DNA of 24,690 bases from a virus: the IMG/VR virus record IMGVR_UViG_3300025785_000090, positions 1 through 24,690 of that record. The stretch is one strand, 5' to 3'. This document shows positions 52 through 2,685 of this stretch, one piece after another. The notes beneath the pieces are model-generated. The model saw only the letters and a list, made by a program, of their open reading frames with translations. It did not search any database and was not told the DNA's origin. Position 1 is the stretch's first letter. Every line of letters starts with the position of its first letter. The position numbers and the translations under genes are program-made.

Positions 52-74
52 AATTATGACTTATTTATAAAACT

Positions 75-83
75 TGATATTAT
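75..83 (+). promoter_or_regulatory. Candidate extended -10 promoter before the protease gene
   Basis: TGATATTAT fits the extended -10 pattern TG-N-TATTAT. The predicted transcript start is near base 90, only about four bases before the ATG at 94. No purine-rich Shine-Dalgarno sequence lies between them, so a leaderless or near-leaderless message is possible. No convincing -35 box is visible, and AT-rich DNA gives such matches by chance. Confidence 0.35.
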
Positions 84-93
84 TTATTTACAT

Positions 94-1458
94 ATGGAAC
101 TACAAAAAACGTACTGGAATAACAGTGAGTCTTCTATCGCTCTCTCCTTTCCTATTGCAAAGGTAAACAAGGAGAAAAGAACCGTTTCTGGGTTTGCGTC
201 TTTGGACAACGTAGATCATCACGGAGACGTTGTAACTGCTGAGGCAAGCAAGGCAGCGTTTGATAATTTTAGAGGGAACATTCGTGAAATGCACGGTCCT
301 TCTGCAGTAGGTAAGATGTTAAGTTTTAAAGAAGATTCTTTTTTTGATCCAAAGACAAATAAGAAATATAACGGAATTTATGTAACAGCATACGTATCTA
401 AGGGTGCTCCAGATGCTTGGGAAAAGTGCTTGGATGGTACATACACAGGTTTCTCAATTGGTGGAAACATTGTAGATGCAAAAATGGAAAAGTCAGATGA
501 TGGACAAGATTCACATAGAGTAATTCATAAGTATGAATTGCATGAGTTGTCACTTGTTGATTCCCCAGCTAACCCTCTTGCAAATATTTTTTCTATTCAG
601 AAGATGGCAGATGGCATTGTAACAGAAAATGTTTTCTGGTGTAAGTCTGATGAAGTATCTTCAACATCAACAGCATCGTCACGTGACTGTGTTGTTTGTG
701 GCAATCAAATGGAAAACATTGGTTGGGTTGAACAAGCAGATGTTGAAAAGTTTGAATCAATTGAAAAAGTAATTGATTCTTATTTTAAGAAAGATGATGC
801 TCCAACATCGTCACATGAAGCAACGGAGTCAGCAGCTCCAGGTTTGGCGGGAACAAATGTAATGCCTAATGTAGTTGATACTACAGTAGCAACACTTATG
901 TATCCTGATCAAAATAAAATCACAAAGAGTGAAGACAATTCACTAAATGAAGGAGGTAATGAAATGACAGAAAATACAGAAGCAGCAGTTGAAAATGCAA
1001 CTGATGTAGAGGCTCCAGCTGAAGAAGTTGCTGTAGTTAACGAAACACCAGAGGTTGCTCCAGAGGCAATTGAGAAGGCTGTTGAAATTTCAGAGGTCGA
1101 GAATACTCTTGATTTTGAGAAGATGGTTAACGACTTTAAGACCTTCGTTGGTGAGTCATTGACAAAGAATTATTCAGATAGCTCAGCAGCTGTTGCAGAG
1201 ATCACAAAGATGTTTGAGGAAACATCAACTAGTGTTCAGAAGCAAATCGCAGAGCTTGGCGAAAAGTATGAGACACTCAACAAGTCCATTACAGATATGT
1301 ATTCGAAGATTGATTATATTGATCATCGTTTTGCAGGATTTGAATCAGCGAGTGCAGTAAAGAAGTCCGTTGGGGTTGACGCTCCATCTGGCGAAACAAA
1401 AATGCAAAAAAGTCTATGGCAAGGCACTTTCCTCGGTGTTAATAGCTTGACAAAATAA
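94..1458 (+). CDS. Prohead maturation protease fused to a C-terminal scaffold domain
   Basis: This 454-residue protein probably processes the capsid shell from inside the prohead. Residues 10-170 resemble the XkdF/HK97-type (S78-like) prohead protease fold. His67 in EMHGPS, Ser121 in TGFSIGG and Glu151 in HELSLVDSPANP sit where the family's His-Ser-Glu/Asp triad is expected. Cys183, Cys199 and Cys202 (CVVC) follow in a short linker. Residues 285-454 are acidic, rich in Ala and Glu, then heptad-like (IAELGEKYETLNKSI), as in a scaffold or delta domain. The capsid gene follows 31 bases later and has no obvious N-terminal delta domain, so scaffolding is probably supplied here. The ATG at 94 has no Shine-Dalgarno sequence; the frame is closed upstream at 49-51 and no better start was found. 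A strong internal start lies at 964. The family is fairly sure; the catalytic residues are assigned by motif only. Confidence 0.85.
   Translation: MELQKTYWNNSESSIALSFPIAKVNKEKRTVSGFASLDNVDHHGDVVTAEASKAAFDNFRGNIREMHGPSAVGKMLSFKEDSFFDPKTNKKYNGIYVTAYVSKGAPDAWEKCLDGTYTGFSIGGNIVDAKMEKSDDGQDSHRVIHKYELHELSLVDSPANPLANIFSIQKMADGIVTENVFWCKSDEVSSTSTASSRDCVVCGNQMENIGWVEQADVEKFESIEKVIDSYFKKDDAPTSSHEATESAAPGLAGTNVMPNVVDTTVATLMYPDQNKITKSEDNSLNEGGNEMTENTEAAVENATDVEAPAEEVAVVNETPEVAPEAIEKAVEISEVENTLDFEKMVNDFKTFVGESLTKNYSDSSAAVAEITKMFEETSTSVQKQIAELGEKYETLNKSITDMYSKIDYIDHRFAGFESASAVKKSVGVDAPSGETKMQKSLWQGTFLGVNSLTK
950..957 (+). promoter_or_regulatory. Strong internal ribosome binding site for the nested scaffold
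   Basis: AAGGAGGT is an essentially perfect complement of the 16S rRNA 3' end. It is the best Shine-Dalgarno sequence I found in the window, yet it lies in the middle of the protease reading frame. It sits six bases before an in-frame ATG at 964. The protease's own start has no such site. Confidence 0.7.
964..1458 (+). CDS. Nested scaffold protein from an internal in-frame start
   Basis: Initiation at ATG 964 (codon 291 of the protease gene) would make a free 164-residue protein identical to the protease C-terminus. It is acidic at the N-terminus (Glu/Ala/Val-rich, about residues 1-55) and predicted coiled coil in the middle (about 85-120), with a basic C-terminal end (MQKSLWQ, then NSLTK) that could contact the capsid shell. 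This is what scaffold proteins look like. The arrangement parallels lambda C/Nu3, where scaffold is produced in excess by an internal start inside the protease gene. The evidence here is the strong Shine-Dalgarno sequence at 950-957, its correct six-base spacing, and the change in protein character exactly at this point. Expression itself is inferred. Confidence 0.65.
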   Translation: MTENTEAAVENATDVEAPAEEVAVVNETPEVAPEAIEKAVEISEVENTLDFEKMVNDFKTFVGESLTKNYSDSSAAVAEITKMFEETSTSVQKQIAELGEKYETLNKSITDMYSKIDYIDHRFAGFESASAVKKSVGVDAPSGETKMQKSLWQGTFLGVNSLTK

Positions 1459-1471
1459 TCTAGAAAAAAAT

Positions 1472-1481
1472 AAGGTGGTGA
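1472..1481 (+). promoter_or_regulatory. Capsid gene ribosome binding site, shared leader motif
   Basis: AAGGTGGTGA precedes the ATG at 1490 by eight bases. The surrounding sequence (AAATAAGGTGGTGAAATAA, then a short AT stretch and ATG) recurs almost unchanged before the tail tube gene at 5811-5833. AAGGTGGT is not the canonical AGGAGGT, so the shared form looks selected rather than generic. Confidence 0.7.
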
Positions 1482-1489
1482 AATAATAA

Positions 1490-2620
1490 ATGAGTAATGA
1501 ACTTCTACAAAAAGTAATTGATACAACTAATCTTGGTTCTGATGCTGTAAACGCATCTGGCGATACTAATGCTCTCTCAGGTAATGGTCTCCTTTACCCA
1601 GATCAGGCTAATCGTTTCCTCGATTACATGTGGGATGCAACAATCCTTGCAAAGGCAGCACGTACAATTCGTATGCGTTCTAACACAACCGAGATTGATC
1701 GTGTTGCAGTTGGACAGCGTATTATGACCGTAGCACAAGAAGATAATCCTCGTGATTATACAGGTGCTACAGGTGGTATTACAAATGCAGCAGCAACTTT
1801 CGCAAAGATTTCCCTAACAACCCGCAAGCTTCGTCTTGATTGGGAACTTTCATCTGAGTCTCTCGAAGACAACGTTGAGGGTCCAGATCTAGAAGACCAC
1901 ATTGCACGTTTGATGGCTACCCAGGCTGGTAACGATATCGAGGATCTCTTGATCAACGGTACAGGTACTGGTTCAGGATTGCTTTCAGCGTTCAAGGGCT
2001 TCCGTCAGCTCGCACTTGACAATGCACACGTCGTTGATGCACAGGGAGTAGGACTTGACAAGGCTGTATTCAACCTTGCAATCAAGACCCTTCCACGTAA
2101 GTACAAGCAGCGTCGCAATCAGCTTCGTTTCTTCACAGGATCAAACCTTGTACAGGATTACCTATACAACTTGACCGCAGAGACAAGCTCTGGCTTCACT
2201 CCATTCGATATCGCTTCTGGCATCATTCGTGGTGACGTAGCTGCTAACGATGGTGGACCAGGAACTGTAACCCCATTCGCATTTGGTATTCCAGTAATCA
2301 ACGTTCCGTTGATGGAAGAGACCGTTGCTGGTGATTACAGCGGTGCAGCAGGTTATCATGGAGATGTCCACTTGACATTCCCACAGAACTTTATCGTCGG
2401 TATCAAGCGTGACGTAACAGTTTATCGTCTGTTCCAGCCAAAGAAGGATACAATTGAGTACACACTCTATATCCGTGTTGGTGCACAGATGGAAAACTAC
2501 GACGCACACGTTATCGTTAAGAACGTTAAGGTCGCAGGTTCAGTAGCTAACTCAGCAGACTTCGGTTCCGTATCACACGGTGCCCATGTCAAGGGTGGCA
2601 ATGGAGCTTACACATTCTAA
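1490..2620 (+). CDS. Major capsid protein, HK97 fold
   Basis: This 376-residue protein forms the icosahedral shell. An N-terminal segment with LLYPDQANRFLDYMWDAT is followed by a region typical of HK97-type capsids of actinobacterial siphoviruses: KLRLDWELSSESLEDN, DLEDHIARLMATQAGNDIED and LPRKYKQRRNQLRFF. The family likeness is from memory of such proteins, not from a search. It follows the protease/scaffold gene and precedes the connector genes, which is the expected position. Arginine is encoded by CGT or CGC throughout, unlike the AGA-rich neighbours, as expected for the most abundant virion protein. The ATG has a dedicated ribosome binding site. The gene ends in a stop-codon hairpin followed by a terminator, so its message can be made as a separate unit. 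Confidence 0.93.
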   Translation: MSNELLQKVIDTTNLGSDAVNASGDTNALSGNGLLYPDQANRFLDYMWDATILAKAARTIRMRSNTTEIDRVAVGQRIMTVAQEDNPRDYTGATGGITNAAATFAKISLTTRKLRLDWELSSESLEDNVEGPDLEDHIARLMATQAGNDIEDLLINGTGTGSGLLSAFKGFRQLALDNAHVVDAQGVGLDKAVFNLAIKTLPRKYKQRRNQLRFFTGSNLVQDYLYNLTAETSSGFTPFDIASGIIRGDVAANDGGPGTVTPFAFGIPVINVPLMEETVAGDYSGAAGYHGDVHLTFPQNFIVGIKRDVTVYRLFQPKKDTIEYTLYIRVGAQMENYDAHVIVKNVKVAGSVANSADFGSVSHGAHVKGGNGAYTF

Positions 2621-2636: not shown

Positions 2637-2676
2637 GATCGGGGGAATACTTAAAGTATTCCCCTTGATCATTTTC
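2637..2676 (+). terminator. Rho-independent terminator after the capsid gene
   Basis: The inner stem GGGGAATACT (2642-2651) pairs with AGTATTCCCC (2655-2664) across a three-base loop. It is flanked by matching GATC arms (2637-2640 and 2667-2670), and ATTTTC follows. The stem is long and GC-rich at its base; the T tract is short. It sits 16 bases after the capsid gene and immediately before a promoter-like site. Confidence 0.75.
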
Positions 2677-2685
2677 TGCTATAAT
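2677..2685 (+). promoter_or_regulatory. Extended -10 promoter for the connector block
   Basis: TGCTATAAT matches the extended -10 consensus TGnTATAAT exactly. It begins directly after the terminator's T tract. The predicted start is near 2692, which gives a leader of about 17 bases that keeps the GAGAGG ribosome binding site at 2696-2701. There is no clear -35 box, as is usual for extended -10 promoters. Confidence 0.6.

Follow-up and report, generated by a model that had tools for sequence, protein, structure and literature searches.

In phage lambda, the C-terminal part of the protease gene encodes the scaffold, such that the genes C and Nu3 overlap (Shaw and Murialdo 1980, as cited in PMC8508860), and the C protein is an S49-type peptidase (PMC10695390). 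Phage Mu has an in-frame scaffold start inside its protease gene, and a putative valine start codon was described for the Mu-like phage PaMx73 (PMC4378225). In herpes simplex virus (HSV), a protease fusion occurs together with a free scaffold that is identical to the C-terminus of the fusion; both are part of the scaffold, of which the fusion-derived VP21 makes up approximately 10% (PMC12474303). According to reference titles in the same article, the last 25 residues of the herpesvirus scaffold are required for contact with the capsid protein. Here, we analyze the virus record IMGVR_UViG_3300025785_000090, a fragment of a lake-water phage whose 24,690 bases are called the window in the following. 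Its first gene (94-1458) very probably yields two co-assembling proteins from one mRNA, a probably leaderless protease-scaffold fusion and a free scaffold that is led by a Shine-Dalgarno (SD) sequence inside the gene.

The arrangement resembles lambda C/Nu3, as had been stated in the initial annotation, in that the scaffold is nested at the C-terminal end of the protease gene just before the head genes. However, the protease is S49-type in lambda and S78/XkdF-like here, and the fusion start in the window looks leaderless, with a promoter of its own. With Mu and PaMx73 the locus shares the nested in-frame scaffold start, for which several relatives also use a valine codon (GTG), but it belongs to another phage group and has a perfect SD sequence that can be traced through several families. 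With herpesvirus UL26/UL26.5 it has in common a protease-scaffold fusion plus a free scaffold sharing its C-terminus, whereas the free scaffold of the herpesvirus has a gene to itself that begins within UL26, and no conserved internal promoter was found here. Pfam and PHROG profiles revealed no homology to the lambda C/Nu3 or Mu proteins, only a weak generic scaffold match (phrog_73, E=0.006). The gene would work like these systems, and by these tests it is not their homologue. In the literature searched, the Mu precedent was found, but no description of a nested scaffold in actinophages, and the Streptomyces and Rhodococcus phage records that were read annotate only a protease, with no scaffold at the nested site.

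A nested start behind a strong Shine-Dalgarno sequence

The features on which the argument rests are the following:

94-1458, plus strand: predicted protease-scaffold fusion, first gene of the window, 454 residues, start without SD sequence (PHROG 9427, Pfam, SD energy -1.9)
950-957, plus strand: nested SD sequence AAGGAGGT (conservation, duplex energy)
964-1458, plus strand: predicted nested scaffold reading frame, 164 residues, from codon 291 of the fusion (ATG in 62/62 IMG/VR relatives; ATG or GTG in Stanwilliamsviridae and Rhodococcus phages)

The initial annotation had placed an SD sequence, a six-base gap and an in-frame ATG at codon 291, opening a product of 164 residues, and all of these coordinates held: AAGGAGGT is followed by the spacer AATGAA (958-963) and by ATG at 964-966. 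The perfect octamer occurs once in the window, both strands considered. SD strength was expressed as duplex energy with the 16S tail (anti-SD, in kcal/mol), and at -13.8 kcal/mol the nested SD surpasses those of all other internal in-frame start codons of the window (185 in total) as well as nearly all of its gene starts (median -8.4). The nested site also ranks first in the stretches read of the phages Blueeyedbeauty (368 internal in-frame starts), Samisti12 (297) and Grayson (323), and among 1793 such starts in four long relatives, the first four ranks are taken by the nested sites. Furthermore, it lies in unusually unpaired mRNA in six of seven cases tested. An out-of-frame product of the nested SD was considered and rejected, the other forward frames being open for at most 65 codons within the gene.

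A point that weighs against a selected signal is that 18 of 200 synonymous shuffles of the window gene, taken alone, equal the strength of the nested SD, since any coding sequence for the peptide EGG-x-x-M is prone to resemble an SD. It is therefore conservation that argues against chance. We retrieved 71 IMG/VR relatives, 62 of which cover the nested site, and used a non-redundant set of 36 with less than 95% nucleotide identity (median 75%); 12 Stanwilliamsviridae (Streptomyces) phages and the Rhodococcus phages Trina and Grayson were compared in addition. The nested ATG is present in all 62 relatives, preceded by AAGGAGG in 55 and by AAGGGGGT in the remaining 7, the latter still pairing through a G-U. 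Within the non-redundant set, ATG is found in 36/36, GGA in 32/36 and GGT in 30/36, and the choice of the GGA and GGT codons at the site (0.80 and 0.70) stands against an expectation of 0.34. The linker on both sides of the site shows indels and little conservation in this set, such that the comparison proposed in the initial annotation, whether relatives keep the SD and the ATG while the linker drifts, came out in favor of the nested start. In the 12 Stanwilliamsviridae phages as well as Trina and Grayson, the SD is retained and the start codon is only ever ATG or GTG, and for those Streptomyces phages that use GTG, synonymous shuffles equal the observed SD in 0-4 of 200 cases. No relative with an intact frame that lacks the SD or the start codon at the junction was found among these 62 and 14 relatives.

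Three remote relatives (L065, L066 and L070) carry AAGGAGGT one base farther from the ATG and in a different codon phase, where it encodes the peptide KEV instead of EGG. Since the SD is kept in another phase with another peptide, selection acts on the RNA rather than on the peptide. From these comparisons, the nested start is strongly supported as a selected internal initiation signal, and it is at the predicted protease/scaffold junction that this in-frame start and its SD are located. The claim that a scaffold gene is nested in frame in the protease gene behind its own strong and conserved ribosome binding site is thus supported. The much remoter Brevundimonas phage Polewnik showed no comparable nested site. 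In the protease of an Alicyclobacillus phage, a similar best site precedes a GTG at codon 296 with an 11-nucleotide gap, which we mention as a lead only.

Within the gene, synonymous sites are most strongly conserved elsewhere, at the 3' end (1405-1452, codons 438-453) before the start of the capsid gene. It is possible that these codons hold an RNA signal for the capsid gene.

A promoter-adjacent start for the fusion

Upstream of the fusion, two promoter elements can be discerned:

52-70, plus strand: putative upstream promoter element AATTATGnnTTATTTATAA with a -35-like ATGACT at 56-61 (conserved in the 36 non-redundant relatives)
75-83, plus strand: extended -10 element TGaTATTAT, with a predicted transcription start at about A90 and a 5' leader of about 4 nucleotides (TATAAT-like hexamer in relatives)

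That the start at 94 has no ribosome binding site was confirmed by its SD energy of -1.9, and this absence seems to go back to the conserved extended -10 promoter 10 nucleotides upstream, which would leave no leader. A TATAAT-like hexamer lies 10-11 nucleotides 5' of the codon-1 ATG in 34 of the 36 non-redundant relatives and is mostly preceded by TG; the spacing is 6 nucleotides in the Stanwilliamsviridae and 9-10 in the Rhodococcus phages, and in the Streptomyces relatives a TTG-type -35 element can be read by eye 17 nucleotides upstream of the hexamer. The start at 94 hence carries the signature of a leaderless gene, a -10 element 5-11 nucleotides before the start codon and no SD. In three annotated stretches of Streptomyces and Rhodococcus phages, -10 hexamers peak 6-7 nucleotides before starts without SD (13/57), as opposed to 1/117 for SD-led starts. 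In the clade of the window, for which gene calls are crude, the excess lies 6-11 nucleotides before SD-less starts, and SD-led genes mostly have the hexamer at 16-27 nucleotides. Leaderless genes are thus apparently frequent in these actinophages, and the fusion is probably translated from a leaderless mRNA. Two points speak against this: the 10-nucleotide gap may leave a leader of 3-5 nucleotides rather than none, and read-through from upstream promoters is possible.

Many SD-less genes in L090, L091, L092 and L093-L110 were also seen to carry a -10-like hexamer 6-7 (or 6-11) nucleotides before the ATG. In Trina (L083:2480) and Grayson (L084:2486), the protease probably starts 4 and 3 codons, respectively, downstream of the annotated position, which falls within the -10 element or beside it.

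The element AATTATGnnTTATTTATAA lies 24-42 bases 5' of the protease start and occurs as a single copy in the window; close matches in long relatives are mostly single copies before the protease gene. A role as a genome-wide late-promoter motif was considered and discarded, as the element is essentially limited to the protease-scaffold gene. It is possible that it serves as the binding site of a phage regulator.

How much of each product, and by which route

The initial annotation had reasoned that the free scaffold should greatly outnumber the fusion, as no ribosome binding site precedes the start at 94. Such an excess is indeed plausible and, by analogy to HSV, likely, but this argument supports it only in part, the start being probably leaderless, and the sequence yields no figure for the ratio. 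Leaderless translation in mycobacteria is reported to be comparably robust to leadered initiation (PMC4633059), and to conclude from a missing ribosome binding site that little fusion is made is therefore unsafe. One may ask whether the fusion could be the main product in spite of a real nested site, with leaderless initiation being efficient in the host and the nested start only topping up the scaffold. The mycobacterial precedent and the conservation of the promoter-adjacent start would fit this, but few SD sequences in each genome match the nested one in strength, and the protease-linked form amounts to only about 10% of the scaffold in HSV (PMC12474303), such that we consider a predominance of the fusion rather unlikely.

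A different route to the free scaffold would be an mRNA of its own. The herpesvirus UL26.5 has its own transcript. It starts in the middle of UL26 and follows the same protein logic (PMC12474303), and the phage gene could likewise contain an internal promoter. However, a -10-like hexamer is present in the 100 nucleotides before the nested start in only 3 of the 36 non-redundant relatives, each time at a different distance, whereas the same scan detects the codon-1 promoter in 34 of them, which makes an internal promoter very improbable. Marginally less credible still is that a conserved peptide E-G-G-N-x-M gives rise to AAGGAGGT as a by-product without any role in initiation, for which the 18 of 200 matching shuffles of the window gene might be quoted, but against which stand the strong preference for the GGA and GGT codons, the different codon phase and peptide in remote relatives, the alternation of the start codon between ATG and GTG only, and the rarely matching shuffles of the GTG-start Streptomyces phages.

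Protease and scaffold parts of the gene

The fusion can be divided as follows:

94-795, plus strand: predicted protease domain, residues 1-234 (Pfam S78 and XkdF, invariant columns, mixed beta/alpha model of moderate confidence)
964-1113, plus strand: acidic, predicted disordered head, residues 291-340, net charge -14, 30% D+E
1114-1365, plus strand: predicted long helix or coiled coil, residues 341-424 (AlphaFold2 model, low to moderate confidence)
1411-1437, plus strand: C-terminal tail SLWQGTFLG (W-x-G-x-F), in both products, proposed to bind the capsid protein (conserved in all families)

In a profile search, residues 1-451 match PHROG 9427 (E=4.1e-116). PF14550 (XkdF-like) aligns to residues 21-125 with 28.5 bits (cut-off 24) and PF04586 (S78) to residues 109-166 with 25.2 bits (cut-off 21), and Pfam gave no match to an S49 peptidase in the 454-residue protein. 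Judged by these profiles, the N-terminal part of the gene encodes a head maturation protease of the S78/XkdF type (PHROG 9427), which is carried by well over a hundred phage records. Invariant in the protease domain are H67, GFS121IGG and ELS153LVDSPAN as well as a C183...C199xxC202 cluster; H67, S121 and S153 are candidate catalytic Ser/His residues of a possible herpesvirus-protease-like fold, in a structure model of low confidence and with no meaningful match in a PDB fold search. In the drifting linker just 5' of the nested start, a peptide island YPDQN(K) (residues 270-274, 901-915) is conserved, though not in L065/L066, and it is possible that this island is a self-cleavage or docking motif.

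The free product is acidic (isoelectric point 4.4), and its C-terminal end, aromatic-x-G-x-F, is kept in all families compared. The initial annotation had seen a switch to an acidic coiled coil at codon 291; the protein is indeed acidic from residue 291 onwards, but the predicted helix begins only at residue 341. We infer that the 164-residue product is a scaffold from its position, its acidity, the predicted helix and weak PHROG scaffold matches. Several observations have to be set against this assignment: homology gives residues 291-454 no firm scaffold role, the match to phrog_73 being weak (E=0.006), the AlphaFold2 model has a mean predicted local distance difference test score of 55.5 with a poor C-terminal half, and a fold search of this model against the PDB yielded no meaningful match.

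Neighboring genes and relatives

Downstream of the fusion, the window contains the following features:

1472-1481, plus strand: SD sequence AAGGTGGTGA of the major capsid protein gene (kept in relatives; -12.6 kcal/mol)
1490-2620, plus strand: major capsid protein, 376 residues, next gene (PF05065, 1.8e-07; PHROG 1623, 2e-79)
2641-2665, plus strand: hairpin 3' of the capsid gene, probable terminator (same place, altered stem sequences in the relatives checked)
2677-2685, plus strand: extended -10 element TGcTATAAT, probable promoter of the next unit (same position in relatives)

The capsid gene (1490) follows directly downstream of the protease gene on the same strand, an order shared by Streptomyces and Rhodococcus phages, and the hairpin at 2641-2665 probably closes the protease/scaffold-capsid unit. 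The open reading frame listed from ATG 2691, directly 3' of the TGcTATAAT promoter, probably starts at ATG 2709 behind GAGAGG. The protease is 37-58% identical to that of the Stanwilliamsviridae with the same gene order, in a comparison confined to the 24.7-kb fragment. These phages as well as Trina and Grayson share with the window a homologous protease, the order protease - capsid protein, the nested SD and start, and the promoter-adjacent start; they differ in their hosts, and the spacing from the -10 element to the ATG is 6 nucleotides in the Streptomyces phages versus 10 here. Judging from its relatives, the host would be an actinobacterium.

A second gene with the tail and a nested SD

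When the C-terminal motif was sought among 2065 reading frames of 8 phages, it was found in the protease-scaffold gene, in one further gene and in two chance matches. A second gene of approximately 200-290 residues was observed in L111-L130 (e.g., L110:9169-9972), tens of kilobases away from the protease gene in long relatives. Near its middle it has a conserved in-frame GGAGGT followed by ATG or GTG (TCAAAY), and its C-terminus, KKS(L/I/V)WGGAFAP or a variant such as IWKGAFAP, is the same W-x-G-x-F tail as that of the scaffold. Of 20 loci, 15 have a nested SD that satisfies a strict pattern, and all 20 have the tail. This gene may be a second nested pair that is sent into the prohead by the shared tail. 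Its N-terminal module is also present in head genes of Gordonia and Streptomyces Zukovirus phages, and the Gordonia, Microbacterium and Zukovirus phages found via this gene have other head-gene layouts.

A model for the two products

In the model that we favor, with two proteins made from one mRNA, the promoter directly 5' of codon 1 would give rise to an mRNA with a leader of a few bases at most, as its conserved signature suggests. Ribosomes starting at the 5' end of this mRNA would make the 454-residue protease-scaffold fusion, and ribosomes binding to AAGGAGGT on the same mRNA would start at ATG 964 and make the predicted 164-residue free scaffold, a step for which conservation provides strong support. 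By means of the shared coiled coil and the W-x-G-x-F tail, the free scaffold and fewer molecules of the fusion would enter the prohead together, both making the same capsid protein contact; since both products carry the tail, both could bind the capsid protein, like the herpesvirus scaffolds. By analogy to lambda, Mu and herpesvirus, the protease would then remove the scaffold in the prohead. The capsid protein would come from the same transcript, with the conserved hairpin ending the unit, and since its SD is almost equally strong as the nested one, scaffold and capsid protein would be expected in matched amounts. The ratio of protease to scaffold would be set by competition between leaderless and SD-led initiation, and the lack of a ribosome binding site at codon 1 alone would not account for it.

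A more far-reaching version of this model is tentative, and we find it possible rather than probable: the stoichiometry of protease and scaffold, governed by leaderless versus SD-led initiation on one mRNA, would follow the state of the host ribosomes, and the W-x-G-x-F tail would mark prohead proteins, a mark shared by the second, distant gene with its own nested SD and start.

Implications

A scaffold nested in a protease gene is a known kind of arrangement; what appears to be new here is its combination with an S78-type protease and the split between leaderless and SD-led initiation. The nested start probably supplies the missing scaffold, which corrects the reading of a locus annotated only as a protease. 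That the SD is retained in two codon phases clearly indicates that an internal signal for initiation is under selection. In phages of Actinobacteria, the absence of a ribosome binding site should not be read as weak translation, as the promoter-adjacent start illustrates. Since the locus is present in culturable Streptomyces phages, it would offer a testable system for leaderless and SD-led initiation on one and the same mRNA.
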